Below are positions 21,196 through 27,736 of a DNA stretch of 35,980 nt, piece by piece. The translations under genes and the position numbers were made by a program. This stretch comes from a virus. The stretch's first letter is position 1. Every line of letters begins with the position of its first letter. The notes under the pieces were generated by a model. It did no database searches, was not told the origin of the DNA, and saw only the letters and a list, made by a program, of their open reading frames with translations. The stretch is from positions 1-35,980 of IMG/VR virus record IMGVR_UViG_3300045738_000171; one strand, 5' to 3'.

Positions 21196-21222
21196 TTAAA
21201 TCAAGTTGAATTGGAGAATGTT

Positions 21223-22437
21223 ATGACACCCAAACAACAAGCAGCGCTTGACGCTTACGCTAGGTACGGCTCATATCAATTAGCCGCCGACGCGCTAACC
21301 ATTAGCAAATCAACAATCCAACAGTTATGCAAAATGGGGCGGGCATCCCAAAATGATGACCCGCTAATAAAATCAGCGTCGCAGGCTTTGGGCCTTAATG
21401 ATACCACCAACGCGCCGTTTTTCTGGGCCAAGTCACACGAACCCGACGAGCATGGGTTAACTTATTCCATGATGGTTCGAAACCCCGCATGTGGCAATGA
21501 AGCGATAGCGTTTACAGATATAGTCCGAGATTCCTTAGAAGATTATAAACCCCTAGACCGTAAATTATTTGCACCCCGAATTAACATCAACAAAAAGGGC
21601 GACAAGCTGCTTGTGCTTGATTTGGCAGATGTCCACTTCGGCAAATTATGCACCACGGAAGAAACTGGCCACAAATATAATATCGAGGTTGCTAGACACA
21701 GAGTTATTGAGGGCACTAGGGCGCTACTCCGAAGATCGGATGATATAGGCCGCATCTTATTTGTTATGGGTAACGACATTCTGCACACAGAGGATGGGAA
21801 GGCCAGCACCGCCGGAACACCACAAGATAGCGATGGTTCATACTTCACCGCGTGGAGGGCCGCGCAGCACGCCAGTAATGACGCTATAGCTGAATGTGCA
21901 GCCGTTGCTGATGTTGACCTTATCCACTGCATGTCAAACCATGACTGGCGATCAGGGTGGGCACTATCGCAAACAATATCCGCCGCAATGTCTGGACATA
22001 AAGGCGTAAGAGCGACGCCCTACAATATGTCGGAAAAGCATTTGAAGTTTTACGGATACGGACGGAATGGGCTAATGCTAACGCATGGCGACGGGGCGAA
22101 AGAGGAAGCACTAACAAGCCTATTCCTAAGACAAGGGAAACACCTAGTTAATAAATGTGACCTGCTTTATGCGTATCTCCACCACTTCCATCACAAGAAA
22201 CGCAAGCGCCGTGGAATTGATGTTTTTGAATCCGAAAAAGACCATACCGCATTCACTCAAATAAACACTGGCGCTGCGAGAGTGGAGGGCGGCGATATGA
22301 TGGCTGAATATGTTAGAAGTCCAAGTGACCCAGATGGATGGCACGACAGGAATGGCTACATAAATAGACAGGCTGTGGAGGCGTTCATGCACTGTCCACA
22401 CGAAGGGCAAAAAGATAGATTTACGGAGTGGTTTTAG
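21223..22437 (+). CDS. Metallophosphoesterase (calcineurin-like) with N-terminal helix-turn-helix
   Basis: 404 residues from ATG 21223 (GGAG upstream). N-terminal HTH-like segment (AARYGSYQLAADAL-type, residues 5-40), then the two-metal phosphoesterase motifs: D133/D136 and H138 in VLDLADVHFGK, GND at 183-185, NHD at 239-241, HGD at 288-290 and HHFHH at 320-324. Phage members of this group are often near replication genes and annotated as DNA repair exonuclease or phosphatase; the substrate is unknown. It sits 14 bases ahead of the membrane cassette and may share its transcript. Confidence 0.85.
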   Translation: MTPKQQAALDAYARYGSYQLAADALTISKSTIQQLCKMGRASQNDDPLIKSASQALGLNDTTNAPFFWAKSHEPDEHGLTYSMMVRNPACGNEAIAFTDIVRDSLEDYKPLDRKLFAPRININKKGDKLLVLDLADVHFGKLCTTEETGHKYNIEVARHRVIEGTRALLRRSDDIGRILFVMGNDILHTEDGKASTAGTPQDSDGSYFTAWRAAQHASNDAIAECAAVADVDLIHCMSNHDWRSGWALSQTISAAMSGHKGVRATPYNMSEKHLKFYGYGRNGLMLTHGDGAKEEALTSLFLRQGKHLVNKCDLLYAYLHHFHHKKRKRRGIDVFESEKDHTAFTQINTGAARVEGGDMMAEYVRSPSDPDGWHDRNGYINRQAVEAFMHCPHEGQKDRFTEWF

Positions 22438-22451
22438 CAAAGGAGAGTAAC

Positions 22452-23222
22452 ATGTTCACTGGCTTGAAAATAATATATGTTGAAATCCGTGTGATGTTGG
22501 CGATATTTTTAATCGCAACAGGTGCATTAGTAGGCGGAATGATTTACGCAGGACACGCTTTTACGGCAGAAGAAGTCGAGGAAGTAGAAACGGGGCTTGT
22601 ATTTACCAAGCTGTCCGAAACTCTCTACAGCATGACAGGCGACGTAGGATTTGGAGATTGCGAACGTATAGCGCCGCTGCTTCCGTCAGATGGGTCGGTG
22701 TTTACGTTGATTCTAGAAAGCCCCGGAGGTTCGCTTGCAGATGGAAGTTGCCTAGCCTCACATATCAAATTGCGGAACGCCGTTACAGTGGTTCGCGATA
22801 GTGCGGTGCTTGGCCCGGAGGGGCAGGTTCTCTATCAGCCAGACGCAGATGGTGACGGCAAGGTTATCTGTGCAAGTGCTTGTTCGTTGATGTTTCTCGG
22901 CGGCGATCAGCGGTATTTAATGGGAGGAAACGTATGGTTCGGAATCCACGGGCCTAGAACACCTGACCCAGAGGGAATAGCACCAGCCGCGCTTGAGGCC
23001 AGCGCATACCGCACTGCTGCGGCGCTGTTGCTTCTACTTAAAGATTTGGGCATAGATGATGATGGCGTGAGGTTGGCGTTCATTCAGATACCGTCGAACA
23101 GTATGTACTGGCTGAATCCAAAGGATTTCAGGTCAATGCCAGGGCTGATAAGTCTAGCTACTCATTATGTTGATTTTCACGGGTTTACAGCACAGAACCC
23201 ACTAGCAACAGTAGGAGGATAG
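22452..23222 (+). CDS. Membrane-anchored ClpP/crotonase-like serine protease (COG3904-like)
   Basis: 256 residues from ATG 22452 (AGGAGAG upstream). One N-terminal membrane segment (about 12-36, VMLAIFLIATGALVGGMIYAG) then a ClpP-like domain facing the periplasm: LILESPGGSLADGSCLASHI (86-105) and KVICASACSLMFLGG with Ser142 as likely nucleophile, then His166 in WFGIHGP. Cys140 and Cys144 flank the serine, as in periplasmic COG3904 proteins. Could cleave membrane or periplasmic peptides. First of six coupled membrane-cassette genes. Confidence 0.75.
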   Translation: MFTGLKIIYVEIRVMLAIFLIATGALVGGMIYAGHAFTAEEVEEVETGLVFTKLSETLYSMTGDVGFGDCERIAPLLPSDGSVFTLILESPGGSLADGSCLASHIKLRNAVTVVRDSAVLGPEGQVLYQPDADGDGKVICASACSLMFLGGDQRYLMGGNVWFGIHGPRTPDPEGIAPAALEASAYRTAAALLLLLKDLGIDDDGVRLAFIQIPSNSMYWLNPKDFRSMPGLISLATHYVDFHGFTAQNPLATVGG

Positions 23223-23223
23223 G

Positions 23224-24246
23224 ATGCTTCGTTCTTTTTTCTTTAGCAAACGATACGGACCTTACGCTTGGATAATGCTGGCTATACTGCTGGGGATTAG
23301 CTGGTATACGGTAGAAATCCTAGTAGTATATAATACATGGAACCGCGAAATCATGGACGCGCTGGAAACGCTACAAGAGGAACGATTCTTCACACTGTTC
23401 GTCGGATGGGATGTTGAGCGAATATGGAACCTTGTTACGTTAAACAAAGATTCGATCAATTCAGTACCAAGTTTTATAGAAATTGTGGCCCTCTATACAC
23501 CTATCGCAGTGGGAGGTTCGTGGTTGACAGCAAGATATACTTTCAAATGGAGAGAAGCGAACACACTTTATTATTTGAAGCGTTGGGAAAAGAGTAAGAT
23601 AAAAATCGAGGGTGCAAGTCAACGTATGCAAGAAGATTTAATGATGTTTGGTGACATTTTGCAAGGGCTTGTAACTGGTTTGTTTTCCGCCATTCTTGTT
23701 TTGTTCGCCTTCATTCCAATACTCTGGGGACTGTCTGAAGCATTGCCAATTTGGGGCGGAGAAATTATCGCCGGATTCCTCGTTTGGGTTGCGCTGATTA
23801 TGTCATTAGGTGGCACGTTTATTTCGATATTCTTAGCTTGGCCTTTGAAAAGGTTTGAAGTGTTGAATCAGATTGTCGAGGCGGTTTTCAGGAAGCGTTT
23901 AGTATTATCAGAAGATAGCTTCGCGGCGCGGGCCTACGATGAACTTGCTGATATGTTTGATGCTGTGCGTAAAAGCTACTACCGCCTTTTTAATTGGTGG
24001 ATGGGTTTCTCCACTTTTCAGCAGGTCTTCGGATTCTTATTGGGTAACGTCGCATTATTTGCCCTAGCCCCGGCCTACTTTGCTCAAATGATAACGCTTG
24101 GGGTCTTGTTTCAATGTCTTAACGCATTCTCGCGTGTGGATAATTCACTTGGATTTTTCATAGATAGATGGCAATCTGTGGTCAAACTGACTGCGGTGGT
24201 TTCGCGGATTAAAACCTATGACCGCGCATTGAAGGAGTCTGAATAA
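23224..24246 (+). CDS. SbmA/BacA-family inner-membrane transporter
   Basis: 340 residues, six to seven membrane segments. The match to SbmA/BacA (PF05992) is strong: TFKWREANTLYYLKRWEKSK, IEGASQRMQEDLMMFGDIL (about 128-146), LVLFAFIPILW, NQIVEAVFRKRLVLSEDSF (215-233), and DAVRKSYYRLFNWWMGF (246-262). E. coli SbmA has 406 residues; here the N-terminal extension is shorter. SbmA/BacA use proton motive force to import peptides and related antibiotics, and BacA matters in rhizobial symbiosis. Its stop overlaps the next ATG (TAATG). I know of no characterised phage copy. Confidence 0.88.
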   Translation: MLRSFFFSKRYGPYAWIMLAILLGISWYTVEILVVYNTWNREIMDALETLQEERFFTLFVGWDVERIWNLVTLNKDSINSVPSFIEIVALYTPIAVGGSWLTARYTFKWREANTLYYLKRWEKSKIKIEGASQRMQEDLMMFGDILQGLVTGLFSAILVLFAFIPILWGLSEALPIWGGEIIAGFLVWVALIMSLGGTFISIFLAWPLKRFEVLNQIVEAVFRKRLVLSEDSFAARAYDELADMFDAVRKSYYRLFNWWMGFSTFQQVFGFLLGNVALFALAPAYFAQMITLGVLFQCLNAFSRVDNSLGFFIDRWQSVVKLTAVVSRIKTYDRALKESE

Positions 24247-24677
24247 TGGTTTTTTGGAAACTATGGACCCTATTCGTTGCAATCCTAACAGGCTTGGGAG
24301 CGGCATGGCACTTTGGTTACGTTTCATACGTTCTTGAAAATGACGTGACCCGCCTGTCGGTGATTATCGCCGCTGTATTTTTCGGGGCATCCGCTTGGGT
24401 GGGTGTGCTTGCTGTGAAGGGTAAGCAGCCCACGACGATGCTTTATTTTATCGCGGGATCTTGCACTAAGCTGGGACTGTTGGGAACGGTAGGCGGGCTT
24501 ATGATAATGATGAGCGCCAATTTTACCGATATAGATAACCCTGACGTGGATATGATAGAGGGAGTTATAACCTCTATGATTTCCGGCATGGGTACAGCGA
24601 TGCTAACGACGCTCGTCGGTATTATGGCGGCGATGTTGCTTGAAATGCAGCTTGTTCTTTTAGAGGATAAGCCATGA
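24246..24677 (+). CDS. MotA/TolQ/ExbB-like proton-channel protein
   Basis: 143 residues, four membrane segments (about 5-28, 37-57, 64-89, 106-137). The third and fourth carry the MotA/TolQ/ExbB signature: CTKLGLLGTVGGLMIMM (73-89) and VITSMISGMGTAMLTTLVGI (107-126), where the LGLLGTVxG and AMxTTLxG motifs line the channel. Shorter than TolQ/ExbB (about 230-245), with almost no cytoplasmic loop. It pairs with the Asp-bearing single-span protein encoded next and should form the five-to-two stator. Coupled at both ends. Confidence 0.8.
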   Translation: MVFWKLWTLFVAILTGLGAAWHFGYVSYVLENDVTRLSVIIAAVFFGASAWVGVLAVKGKQPTTMLYFIAGSCTKLGLLGTVGGLMIMMSANFTDIDNPDVDMIEGVITSMISGMGTAMLTTLVGIMAAMLLEMQLVLLEDKP

Positions 24678-25264
24678 GGAAAACGGAGAATAACACTTCC
24701 TTTCTGGATTTGCTGCTTATTCTTGTCGTCATGTATGGGGCTATGCTTATTCTAGCATTGCCGTTTCTCAATCCCATAGCAGACGAAGGTGTTGTTACGC
24801 CCGATGGGCTTGTTATGATTACCCTGCGCTGGCCCAATGGTTCGGTTAAGGATATGGACCTCTGGGTTAAAGGCCCAGATGGAACCGTTGTTAGCTATCA
24901 GCGCAAGGATGGGCGGTATATTCTGCTGGACAGGGACGATCTAGGTTCAGCTAACGATTCTATTATCGTGGACGGTATTGTTAAAATCATTCCCCGAAAT
25001 CTTGAAACCGTGATGATAACAGATTTGCAGGACGGTGAATATGTGGTGAACGTGCATCACTTTTCCGGCGTAGCGGGCGAGGTTGAGGTGACGGTGGAGG
25101 TTACGGGATTAATGCCGTATCGGATTTGGTTCACGGGCGACGCAACGCTTTCGTCGCGGCAGGAATTAACAGTCGTCAGCTTCACCGTGGAGGGTGGTCG
25201 TATTACAGACGTTAGGACTGATTTGCAAGTCAGGCTTAGATCAGCAGGAGGGTCTGTGCCATGA
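24674..25264 (+). CDS. MotB/ExbD-like single-span protein with periplasmic beta domain
   Basis: 196 residues. One membrane segment (SFLDLLLILVVMYGAMLILALPFL, about 9-32) with Asp12 at its start, the position of the proton-carrying Asp of MotB, TolR and ExbD. The periplasmic part lacks the usual peptidoglycan-binding domain; it reads DMDLWVKGPDGTVVSYQRKD...LLDRDDLGSAND, a DUF2135-like beta sandwich, ending ELTVVSFTVEGGRI. So a stator B-unit with an unusual ligand domain. ATGA overlap with both neighbours. Confidence 0.75.
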   Translation: MRKTENNTSFLDLLLILVVMYGAMLILALPFLNPIADEGVVTPDGLVMITLRWPNGSVKDMDLWVKGPDGTVVSYQRKDGRYILLDRDDLGSANDSIIVDGIVKIIPRNLETVMITDLQDGEYVVNVHHFSGVAGEVEVTVEVTGLMPYRIWFTGDATLSSRQELTVVSFTVEGGRITDVRTDLQVRLRSAGGSVP

Positions 25265-25698
25265 TTGAATCATTAATCATTTCACTCGCCGCGCTGGTTG
25301 TCATCTTAGCATTCCTGATGTATCATTCAGGTGCGCCAGCCATCTTGAAGCTCACGGTTTTCCCTGCACTTATCGCTGCGATTATACTAGGAACAGTGGT
25401 TTACAAAGATCGGCTCGGCGCACCTATCAACGCTTATCCCAAAGGAGAATTTTTGTATGTGTTCCACCAGTCAGGCCAATCTGGGGAGGTGATTTATCTC
25501 TGGGTGTGGACCGCTGATCGAGGTCAGCGGTTGCACACCTTTGATTATGATCGCCAAACAATGGAAGAACTAGAGGAGGCAAAGGGCCGTGCTGAAGATG
25601 GTCAGGAATACGGCCAATTCACAGCGAACACTGAGAGCGGATTTGATTACGAACAAGCCGATGAACCACATGAACCACGGGAAGGATTTGAGAAATGA
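25261..25698 (+). CDS. Two-span membrane protein of unknown function
   Basis: 145 residues. Two hydrophobic segments (about 3-21 and 28-47) followed by a soluble part with GEFLYVFHQSGQSGEVIYLWVWT, and a very acidic C-terminus rich in Glu/Asp (LEEAKGRAEDGQEYGQF...EPHEPREGFEK). No family recognised. It lies between the stator pair and ClpP with ATGA overlaps at both ends, so it probably belongs to the same assembly. Confidence 0.65.
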   Translation: MIESLIISLAALVVILAFLMYHSGAPAILKLTVFPALIAAIILGTVVYKDRLGAPINAYPKGEFLYVFHQSGQSGEVIYLWVWTADRGQRLHTFDYDRQTMEELEEAKGRAEDGQEYGQFTANTESGFDYEQADEPHEPREGFEK

Positions 25699-26309
25699 GC
25701 TTGATACATATACCAAAGAGGAAAGAGCCAACACCACCACCCCCAATGCCTACACCCCCACCAGCACCATATAAACTGGGGGAGGCTTCATATGAAGATG
25801 GTGATTTACACCTAAGCACGAAATTCGAAAATACAGAGATAATTCCGCTGGTTCAGGCAATAATTGATTATAACAAGAAGCCCGAAGATAAGCGGCCCGA
25901 AGTAATACGCATTTTTATTAATAGCGGCGGCGGTGAAGTTTCAGCGTGTCTACACTTGATTGACATTATGAAGCAGTCGGCCATCCCCGTTCACACATAC
26001 GGTATGGGTCTGGTTGCTAGTTGCGCGTTTATGACGCTAATGGCTGGCGAGAAACGATTTGCCACGCAAAACACGCTGTTGATGTCTCACCAATATTCGG
26101 GTGGGTCTGGTGGCAAGGAACATGAATTGCAGGCAAGCCAGCGCCGGATGGAGATTATTTCTTTTCAGCTAATGGACCACTACAGAAAATGCACAGGAAA
26201 AACTGAGAAATACATCCGTAAACATTTGCTGCCCGCAAGTGATGTATGGCTAACAGCCGCCGAATGTGTTACGCATAATGTTATAGATGAAGTCATCAAA
26301 ACATATTAG
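25695..26309 (+). CDS. clpP: ClpP-family serine protease
   Basis: 204 residues. A Pro-rich N-terminal 25 residues (PKRKEPTPPPPMPTPPPAP) precede the ClpP fold: IRIFINSGGGEVSACLHLID (71-90), nucleophile Ser109 in GLVASCA, His132 in MSHQYSGG, and Asp183 in SDVWLTAAE; the triad spacing fits ClpP. No Clp ATPase is encoded, so it may degrade small peptides or use a host chaperone. The Pro-rich tail is unlike ordinary ClpP propeptides and could contact a partner in the cassette. ATGA overlap with the upstream gene. Confidence 0.88.
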   Translation: MSLIHIPKRKEPTPPPPMPTPPPAPYKLGEASYEDGDLHLSTKFENTEIIPLVQAIIDYNKKPEDKRPEVIRIFINSGGGEVSACLHLIDIMKQSAIPVHTYGMGLVASCAFMTLMAGEKRFATQNTLLMSHQYSGGSGGKEHELQASQRRMEIISFQLMDHYRKCTGKTEKYIRKHLLPASDVWLTAAECVTHNVIDEVIKTY

Positions 26310-26317
26310 GAGATCAA

Positions 26318-26413
26318 ATGAAGTGGTATAACGAACAGACAAGGGGCGTAAAGCTGATGATTGCCTTCGTTGTTATCGTCATCGTTGCAGAGGGTATAAA
26401 ATATTTAGCCTGA
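26318..26413 (+). CDS. 31-residue single-span membrane micro-protein
   Basis: Reads MKWYNEQTRGVKLMIAFVVI and VIVAEGIKYLA, one hydrophobic segment after a polar start. AGGAG five bases before ATG 26318, nine bases after clpP, and its end overlaps the convergent Rz1-like gene by nine bases. A good ribosome binding site and membrane composition support it; function unknown, possibly the last part of the cassette. Confidence 0.55.
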   Translation: MKWYNEQTRGVKLMIAFVVIVIVAEGIKYLA

Positions 26414-26623
26414 ACAAGCCCCGTCGAATCCAGAAATAACCGCCACGCCCGCTTCTTGTGAGCGTGGCCCACCATCTTCTATCAGCGCCACGTTTAGTGC
26501 GTCAATGTCGTCGTCTAGTTCGTCACAGATTCCTGTCTGACTTACGGTCGCGCAACCACTCACTAGGAGTAAACTCAGCAGCATCAGACTGCGAATCTTC
26601 AATGTTTTCCCTTGTGTCCACAT
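26405..26623 (-). CDS. Rz1-like outer-membrane spanin lipoprotein
   Basis: 72 residues with a lipobox (LLLSLLLVSGCATVS pattern). The signal region MKIRSLMLLSLLLVSGC would also be produced from a TTG at 26602 with AAGGGA upstream, so the true start may be 26602. The gene begins inside the i-spanin gene in another frame, the classic nested Rz/Rz1 layout. Outer-membrane lipoprotein spanins fuse the two membranes in the last step of lysis. The mature part is short and acidic rather than Pro-rich. Converges with the early operon end. Confidence 0.7.
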   Translation of the reverse strand: MWTQGKTLKIRSLMLLSLLLVSGCATVSQTGICDELDDDIDALNVALIEDGGPRSQEAGVAVISGFDGACSG

Positions 26624-26750
26624 AATCTTTATGGTCCTTTTTGACCTGTTTGGTTTTCTGCATAGACATGCCCTGCATCACAGCAGCGCCCAGCGCAGCC
26701 ACGAATCCAAGCGCAGCGATTAAATACAGTTTCAGTTTACCGAATATCAT
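26523..26750 (-). CDS. Rz-like inner-membrane spanin
   Basis: 75 residues: N-terminal membrane segment LYLIAALGFVAALGAAVMQG (about 8-27), then a charged helical region (MSMQKTKQVKKDHKDYVDTR, continuing ENIED). This is the i-spanin design. It contains the start of the Rz1-like gene out of frame and overlaps the holin-like gene stop by four bases. Shorter than lambda Rz (153) but in the range of small phage spanins. Confidence 0.65.
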   Translation of the reverse strand: MIFGKLKLYLIAALGFVAALGAAVMQGMSMQKTKQVKKDHKDYVDTRENIEDSQSDAAEFTPSEWLRDRKSDRNL

Positions 26751-26959
26751 TTTATTGCCTTGGATGTTATCATTCTCAGCATACTGTTACCAAAAACCGT
26801 TATCAGCGTGAGCACAAGGGCTGCTGTGGTGGCTTGAGCGTCTGTTAGCCCTAATTGGTCCGTAAACTGCATTGCCGCCCCAGACAGGCTTACAATGAGC
26901 GTTGTCAGGTTGAACCACAAAGTTTTTGATTGATACCAGCGTTTAGAAAAGTCCTGCAA
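26747..26959 (-). CDS. Putative holin or small membrane lysis protein (TTG start)
   Basis: 70 residues from TTG 26959, chosen because GGAGG lies six bases upstream; the long frame from 27106 would overlap the endolysin by 164 bases and is rejected. Two hydrophobic segments (LWFNLTTLIVSLSGAAMQF and TTAALVLTLITVFGNSMLRM) with a DQLGLTDAQA turn fit a class II holin. Lies between endolysin and spanins. Confidence 0.6.
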   Translation of the reverse strand: MQDFSKRWYQSKTLWFNLTTLIVSLSGAAMQFTDQLGLTDAQATTAALVLTLITVFGNSMLRMITSKAIK

Positions 26960-27548
26960 AGAACGCCTCCACTTCGTCAAAGAACAGCGCAATGGCTGCG
27001 ATAAGGGCTGCAATAGGTAGCCAAGCGGCGGGAACGCCTTCACGCGCCCCGCCAGAGCCAGCGGTTGTTTCATAAAAATGCGTCGGCAGTGATGCATCTG
27101 CAACATTCATTTGGAAATATACAGCCTCACTTGCACGTCGATTTATCAAACCTTGGCTCACAACCTTTTTACCATTAACCGTGATTTTGTTCCACATCAA
27201 TATTGCCTGTGAGGCTCCATTTTTATCGCCCTTGTTAAATTTACGCGCCGCCGTTGAACCCTCAAATGCACCAACGCCGATGTTGTGGGTTAGACTTACA
27301 AACCCGCCAAATTCATGGTTTGTCATTTGCTTTTTAATAACACGCGCAACGCAGGCGGCTGCAATGCCTAGATCATCAATTAGAAGTTTCGCCGCCCCGT
27401 AATCAGTTATTTCCATGCCAGCGTAAACGCCTTTTGTGTGGCCGAAGCCTATCGTCCATATGCCCGCGCTGTCCGTATACGCCTCAAGCCGAAGCCCCTC
27501 GAATTGCTTTATGAGGTTAACCGTTGCTGAAGTTAATTCGTTTTTCAT
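26943..27548 (-). CDS. Endolysin, GH24 (T4 lysozyme-like) with C-terminal membrane segment
   Basis: 201 residues from ATG 27548 (GAGGGGG six bases upstream); the frame opens further to 27569. Catalytic triad with T4 lysozyme spacing: Glu17 (KQFEGLRLEAY), Asp26 (DSAGIW) and Thr32 (TIGFGHT). PF00959 muramidase, cleaves peptidoglycan. After the enzyme a GSGGAREG linker leads to a hydrophobic C-terminus (AWLPIAALIAAIALFFDEVEAF), a possible membrane anchor. No N-terminal signal-anchor is seen. Overlaps the holin-like gene by 17 bases. Confidence 0.9.
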   Translation of the reverse strand: MKNELTSATVNLIKQFEGLRLEAYTDSAGIWTIGFGHTKGVYAGMEITDYGAAKLLIDDLGIAAACVARVIKKQMTNHEFGGFVSLTHNIGVGAFEGSTAARKFNKGDKNGASQAILMWNKITVNGKKVVSQGLINRRASEAVYFQMNVADASLPTHFYETTAGSGGAREGVPAAWLPIAALIAAIALFFDEVEAFFAGLF

Positions 27549-27736
27549 AGTCGCCCCCTCAGATAGCATTGATATACGTGGTCTCTTTCTTTACGCCGAA
27601 ATACGCAATCAATCAATCGCATCTGGACCGCTGCGGTATATGATCCGCGAGTCCACGCTTTGAAAAGGCGGGAGCAATATGTCTCCCCCAAACTGCCGAA
27701 TGTTAAAAAATTAAGCAATCGGCTGGTGAAAATCAT
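27545..27736 (-). CDS. Small basic hypothetical protein in lysis cluster
   Basis: 63 residues: LLNFLTFGSLGETYCSRLFKAW, then an AAVQMRLIDCVFRRKERDHV segment. The pattern of a GETxxSR motif and a late DHxxxxY resembles a small phage protein found near endolysin genes. It overlaps the upstream membrane gene (ATG 27736, stop 27733) and the endolysin start by four bases, so it fills the otherwise empty 184-base gap. No function assigned. Confidence 0.5.
   Translation of the reverse strand: MIFTSRLLNFLTFGSLGETYCSRLFKAWTRGSYTAAVQMRLIDCVFRRKERDHVYQCYLRGRL

Follow-up and report, generated by a model that had tools for sequence, protein, structure and literature searches.

A three-gene MotA/MotB-like stator block found with SbmA/BacA-family and ClpP-type genes in tailed phages

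We analyzed an operon of predicted stator, peptide transporter, and protease genes in the IMG/VR virus record IMGVR_UViG_3300045738_000171 and compared it with related loci in viruses and bacteria. The window, meaning the whole 35,980-base stretch of DNA analyzed, comes from a tailed phage with recognized terminase, portal, head, and tail genes, and the operon lies at its 22452–26413 positions, on the plus strand at the end of a run of replication and recombination genes. It consists of seven almost gapless open reading frames (ORFs; Table 1), and the seven tightly coupled genes on one strand described in the original prediction are thus all present. That prediction also counted one TAATG and four ATGA junctions; the TAATG is found at SbmA/MotA and three ATGA overlaps are found at MotA/MotB, MotB/TM2, and TM2/ClpP, while memClpP and SbmA are separated by a 1-base gap. 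The proline-rich stretch of ClpP, taken earlier for a tail, is N-terminal, and the 31-amino-acid (aa) peptide that had been included in the cassette is absent from the corresponding place in L002 and L017, the two closest relatives of the window, and so is not a conserved part of it. Viral contigs used for comparison here are mostly fragments, counts include related, non-independent contigs, and the terms marine and rhizobial, for uncultured contigs, derive from gene content and relatives. The order of the remaining six genes recurs in L017 at 37–59% identity per protein. Between the window and L002, the ratio of nonsynonymous to synonymous substitution rates (dN/dS) is ~0.1 for SbmA, memClpP, and TM2, and protein identities are very unequal (49–93%), which argues that modules have been exchanged between phages. 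The operon is thus confirmed, and chance does not account for the association of its genes. A scan for promoters and terminators gave counts near those of shuffled sequence.

Table 1. Genes of the operon in the window (TM, transmembrane segment)
Feature	Position	Strand	Description	Basis
memClpP	22452..23222	+	Membrane-anchored ClpP-like serine protease, predicted periplasmic	
SbmA	23224..24246	+	SbmA/BacA-family peptide transporter, 340 aa	Pfam, NCBIfam, and solved structure alignment
MotA	24246..24677	+	MotA/ExbB/TolQ-core subunit, 143 aa, four apparent TMs	Pfam MotA_ExbB
MotB-like	24674..25264	+	MotB/ExbD-like subunit, one TM and predicted periplasmic β sandwich	Invariant Asp12, structure model
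TM2	25261..25698	+	Two-span third subunit: two TMs, K/R-rich hairpin, predicted periplasmic β3-α domain	Structure model
ClpP	25695..26309	+	ClpP-family protease, Pro-rich N-terminal extension, no signal peptide	Pfam CLP_protease
31-aa peptide	26318..26413	+	Membrane peptide, non-conserved accessory or chance ORF	Open frame

By sequence and predicted structure, the MotA and MotB-like proteins are a proton-channel stator pair. Of the operon proteins in the window, only MotA, SbmA, and ClpP matched Pfam families. The window MotA matches Pfam MotA_ExbB (PF01618) at an E-value of 2.5e-7 with 30.9 bits, above the cut-off of 22.9, and its profile matches the structures of ZorA, PomA, MotA, TolQ, and ExbB. 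The transmembrane glycine motifs G77, G80, G84, G114, and G125 are kept in 76–77 of 79 members and the pore-lining T122 of TM4 in 76 of 79. The MotB-like protein has a single N-terminal TM (helix 8–32 in the model) with an aspartate, Asp12, that all 73 diverged members share. This invariant residue and the TM4 threonine of MotA point to a functional channel, not to a decoy. Neither the window protein nor any of the 73 members matched the ExbD, TolR, or MotB families of Pfam, and there was no Pfam match to the OmpA family of peptidoglycan-binding domains. In the structure model (predicted local distance difference test score, pLDDT, 89), the TM helix is followed by a predicted periplasmic β sandwich that aligns with TerD-family structures at Z 10.0–11.7 over 120–136 residues, the next row reaching 6.6. 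Membership of the TerD family was rejected, the hhalign probability being 0.8% and PF02342 not being among the Pfam matches; PF02342 was also found in none of seven triad-bearing genomes (the triad is defined below). Since sequence comparison finds nothing, the likeness is one of fold only. An invariant set of mostly acidic residues in this domain (D60, D62, D88, D89, N94, and E111) suggests a probable metal site. A DUF2135 match of the L017 MotB-like protein fell below threshold and was set aside, and searches of solved structures with MotB-like, TM2, and memClpP found nothing.

The stator genes belong to a three-gene block, MotA-MotB-TM2, referred to here as the triad. A pattern search with the window MotA alone returned no viral relatives; a MotB profile was used instead and matched 81 viral contigs and 46 genome loci, with the MotA-MotB-TM2 order kept in every locus having sequence on both sides. 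A later scan of 77 further loci found TM2 in all of them and MotA in 75, both exceptions stopping at a contig edge. Over more than 200 recovered loci, located on more than 150 viral contigs, in rhizobial phage isolates, and in one clade of proteobacterial chromosomes, the triad was intact in essentially all. TM2 is the obligate third gene of the core, and the triad core is far more widely spread than its combination with SbmA and ClpP. Among GenBank phages, the MotB-like query matched 27 records, all of Rhizobium or Sinorhizobium phages and all with the triad; a second, marine MotB query again gave 27 records, all rhizobial. These isolates include temperate phages such as 16-3, in which the MotB-like gene is p040, as well as 68 kb phages and 150–170 kb phages, Pootjesviridae among the last. 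The triad is also present in rhizobial genomes as apparent prophages. In the rhizobial phages L008 and L011, HNH and Seg-like homing endonuclease genes lie between triad genes, and small ORFs interrupt some blocks. The MotB-like proteins matched only PHROGs of unknown function, and the MotA proteins almost none.

On a quick maximum-likelihood tree, which also underlies the two clades of SbmA-linked triads described below, most triads of bacteria, chiefly Gamma- and Betaproteobacteria, fall into a single clade (support 100) that lies within the viral diversity. At L098–L127, a lipoprotein gene, often with genes for a pyrroloquinoline quinone (PQQ) dehydrogenase and a solute-binding protein, follows ~1–3 kb downstream of the chromosomal triad. 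PQQ dehydrogenases depend on calcium or a lanthanide, a metal dependence that may fit a metal-binding MotB domain. Two triads, L137 and L141, are on contigs assigned to candidate-phylum genomes (Harrisonbacteria and Kaiserbacteria), and these may be binned virus contigs.

The TM2 model (pLDDT 86) shows two TMs and a small β3-α domain. The hairpin loop between the TMs carries a net charge of +2.1, and this positive charge, together with a lysozyme fusion, places the C terminus of TM2 in the periplasm. TM2 matched no Pfam family, and a fold search gave no meaningful match. The fusion to a complete phage lysozyme is found in 13 contigs from 11 datasets, all of one marine clade, with Pfam E-values of 1e-47 to 6e-50 and the catalytic E-D-T residues intact. 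ClpP is upstream of MotA in 12 of these 13 contigs, the thirteenth ending before MotA. A lysozyme match was lacking in 13 of 19 triad contigs tested, and a link to lysozyme general to triads was rejected, the fusion being restricted to the one clade.

The window SbmA matches Pfam SbmA_BacA over residues 14–336 (1.3e-61, 209 bits), passing the cut-off, and aligns with the solved SbmA structure 7p34 (1e-39), sharing its IEGAxQRxQED motif. It stays under the NCBIfam equivalog cut-offs, with 180 of 492 bits for PRK11098 and 240 of 385 bits (4.7e-71) for PRK12369. Directly upstream, memClpP is predicted to have a cytoplasmic N terminus, one TM, and an export-side domain with four cysteines and a Ser-His catalytic pair. 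The Gly-Gly loop, the catalytic serine followed by histidine, and the four cysteines are invariant in 47 of 47 relatives, a pattern that fits a periplasmic protease with disulfide bonds. Among the Pfam and NCBIfam models, none for ClpP matched memClpP up to an E-value of 10, and the gene was not found in phage isolates. An unannotated protein of 82–100 aa, with one apparent TM and conserved cysteines, is encoded directly upstream of memClpP in 42 loci (e.g., L150:6732-6998). SbmA matches in phage isolates came to three records, an unannotated piece of 7 kb and a pair of Acinetobacter records of 254 kb each, possibly host DNA; they were not used.

The linkage of these genes to the triad was assessed in a scan of viral contigs by SbmA alignment, in which the best 80 of 460 encoding contigs were examined. 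Sixty-one of the 80 belong to the clade of the window (54–92% identity), and memClpP is directly upstream of SbmA in 60 of the 61, the exception starting at a contig edge. A triad lies within 8 kb of the memClpP-SbmA pair in 31 of the 61 loci, downstream in 18, upstream in 12, and on the opposite strand in one, the nearest relative L002, at a distance of ~6 kb. Beside-the-triad placement thus occurs in 30 of 61 loci in two gene orders, and both orders are present in two separate supported clades. In six further loci of the window clade, the triad is elsewhere on the contig. An SbmA of a different clade (322–323 aa), without memClpP, directly follows TM2 or comes after ClpS in L030, L036, L040, and L298. 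A second viral SbmA clade of 19 loci (L202–L204, L206–L221; 34–36% identity) has neither memClpP nor the triad nearby; that of L203 sits between tail-type genes.

The cytosolic ClpP matches Pfam CLP_protease at 2.1e-26, passing the cut-off, and its catalytic Ser109, His132, and Asp183 are conserved in the window, L002, and L017. ClpP adjoins the triad in several virus lineages, with ten label changes on the tree. Other partners are found elsewhere: a secreted Trypsin_2 (trypsin-like) protease is encoded upstream of the triad in rhizobial phages, ClpS directly follows TM2 in some large marine phages, and L298 carries DnaK, Hsp20, MotA, MotB, TM2, ClpS, SbmA, and ClpP within ~8 kb.

Directly upstream of the operon in the window is a gene for an Mre11-type exonuclease (phrog_704; 21211–22437); in rhizobial phages, its homologues are instead encoded a short way downstream of the triad (a cluster of 33 loci). 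Directly after the operon, a convergent lysis cassette on the minus strand (26405–27569) encodes an endolysin (phrog_7, 1e-47), a TM protein, an Rz-like spanin, and a small Rz1-like lipoprotein.

The triad resembles Zorya in having a MotA/ExbB/TolQ channel subunit and a one-TM, Asp-bearing partner, and ZorA is among the best MotA matches. Unlike Zorya, the triad is carried by phages and has a third, two-span subunit; its 143-aa MotA matches only the core of the 461–699-aa ZorA models and lacks the long cytoplasmic tail, and its B subunit is without the OmpA-type ZorB domain. No ZorC, ZorD, or ZorE partner and no Zorya nuclease or helicase was matched among the operon proteins, and Zorya and other defense families were rejected as the identity of the operon. 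With ExbB/ExbD, TolQ/TolR, and MotA/MotB, the triad shares the channel core, the TM aspartate, and the TM4 threonine, from which an inner-membrane proton motor is expected; it differs in its very short A subunit and in a B subunit that is TerD-like instead of ExbD/TolR- or OmpA-like. No TonB, TolA, TolB, or Pal gene was found in the operon or the adjoining genes. The MotB-like domain shares its predicted fold with TerD and differs from it in being exported and membrane-anchored and in having no detectable sequence homology. The window SbmA matches the SbmA/BacA family (the short form, PRK12369) over its full length, and differs in being phage-borne, below the equivalog cut-offs, and preceded by memClpP. 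The TM2-lysozyme protein, like signal-anchored phage endolysins, tethers a complete T4-type lysozyme to the membrane; unlike them, it is encoded in a stator operon as the third subunit and has two TMs and a further domain. The literature yielded no described phage system of stator, SbmA, and ClpP genes. The two outcomes that the original prediction named as refuting it, independent occurrence with no conserved neighborhood and failed profile searches for the stator and SbmA families, are contradicted by the 30 of 61 linked loci and by the SbmA and MotA matches. The prediction is partly borne out, in its contrast with Zorya, in its assignment of SbmA and MotA to families that pass Pfam cut-offs, and in its conserved neighborhood of a stator pair, SbmA/BacA, and two ClpP-type proteins; its stator pair holds as well, within a core that is one gene larger than proposed.

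We tentatively favor, short of confidence in it, the reading that the operon encodes a proton-driven accessory envelope machine of phages that would combine hydrolysis, peptide import, and Clp proteolysis. Judging from their family, the MotA and MotB-like subunits would assemble as a rotary stator in the inner membrane, with protons passing by way of MotB Asp12 and the TM4 threonine of MotA. Proton flow would move the TerD-fold domain and the periplasmic domain of TM2, and this moving part may act on peptidoglycan and periplasmic proteins. Partner hydrolases, which are linked to the triad by lineage (memClpP in the window, the secreted trypsin-like protease in rhizobial phages, and the TM2-fused lysozyme in one marine clade), would cut the exposed material. 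SbmA would import the resulting peptides with the same proton gradient, for degradation by cytosolic ClpP (together with ClpS in other phages). Overall, the machine would serve to remodel and salvage the envelope of the infected host as an accessory function, rather than to carry out essential lysis. Several observations weigh against this proposal. Many triad viruses have no recognized hydrolase or SbmA within reach, and ~24 of the 61 SbmA contigs, most of them fragments, showed no triad. No SbmA or Clp genes were recognized near the bacterial chromosomal triads, so the basic job of the triad need not involve peptides. Clp and chaperone genes are common in large marine phages, and part of their linkage to the triad may therefore be background. 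A broader form of the same proposal, that the triad represents a new class of virus motor, proton-driven, rotary, and three-subunit, which phages would place in the host inner membrane for mechanical work on the envelope, with swappable hydrolytic heads (lysozyme, trypsin-like, or ClpP-like), peptide recovery by SbmA, ClpS, and ClpP, and a domesticated bacterial branch, is possible and more doubtful.

Control of lysis is the best surviving alternative, though we regard it as unlikely. The stator would sense the proton gradient and keep a membrane-tethered hydrolase inactive until the gradient collapses, or it would weaken the wall before the holin acts. In its favor are the 13 TM2-lysozyme contigs and the nearness of endolysin domains: with the fusions counted in, 23 of 79 dereplicated viral loci have one within ~6.8 kb of the triad, in rhizobial phages mostly 3–6 kb upstream on the same strand. 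The endolysin/spanin cassette adjoining the window operon can be read both ways, as a sign of association or as evidence that the phage already has lysis genes of its own, for an endolysin and Rz-like proteins, on the opposite strand. Lysozyme went unmatched in most of the triad contigs tested, and the Pootjesviridae triad is found beside gyrase, sigma-factor, and recombination genes. In phage 16-3, the late genes lie on one side of the triad (22.65–24.51 kb) and xis (31.7 kb) on the other, and the holin is annotated at a distant site, 59.8 kb. This region is called silent on the basis of classical mapping cited in PMC10460002, not of deletion of the triad genes. The position in a genetically silent arm suggests that the triad is probably not needed for 16-3 plaques and argues against an essential role in lysis.

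Less probable again is superinfection exclusion or envelope immunity, among the roles suggested in the original prediction, in which the motor and periplasmic proteases would change the envelope against other phages or bacteriocins. Profile comparison puts the MotA core nearest to ZorA, a component of anti-phage defense, the triad occurs in temperate phages and apparent rhizobial prophages, and in 16-3 it shares an arm with immX. However, many of the large marine triad phages show no sign of lysogeny genes in the examined regions, no receptor-modifying or nuclease partner accompanies the triad, and SbmA import and ClpP fit such a role poorly.

We give slightly less weight still to a role in peptide defense or nutrition only, with SbmA, memClpP, and ClpP importing and destroying peptides of host or foreign origin and the stator genes being independent envelope genes that share the operon. 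The memClpP-SbmA pair is the tightest in the data set, about half of its loci are without a nearby triad, and most triad viruses are without SbmA, all of which favors this explanation. Against it, the side-by-side placement is repeated in two orders and two clades, and an SbmA of a different clade follows the triad or ClpS in four loci; these observations argue for a working link between SbmA and the triad.

It is very improbable that the small MotA and MotB-like proteins are decoys that disable a stator of the host or of a defense system (Zorya, Tol-Pal, or ExbBD) through mixed assembly; the short, tail-less MotA core and its profile likeness to ZorA would suit a decoy, but the proton-path residues are invariant, the periplasmic domain is conserved, the third subunit is obligate, and the triad is also carried by bacterial chromosomes. 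A collection of unrelated accessory genes at an insertion spot is the least credible explanation, since the variable gene content between phages and the uneven window/L002 identities that might suggest it are outweighed by 60 of 61 pairings, 30 of 61 triad adjacencies, and a near-universal triad order, which are far beyond chance and contradict it.

To our knowledge, the proton-driven stators described so far are all cellular, serving motility, the Ton and Tol systems, gliding, and Zorya. The stator reported here is part of a gene set that is widespread in phages, always includes the third subunit, and exchanges its partners. Because cultured carriers exist, the classic phage 16-3 among them, the triad is testable now. 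If the favored reading is true, viruses exploit the host proton gradient through a motor of their own for work on the envelope, and a function would be assigned to many unannotated phage genes.

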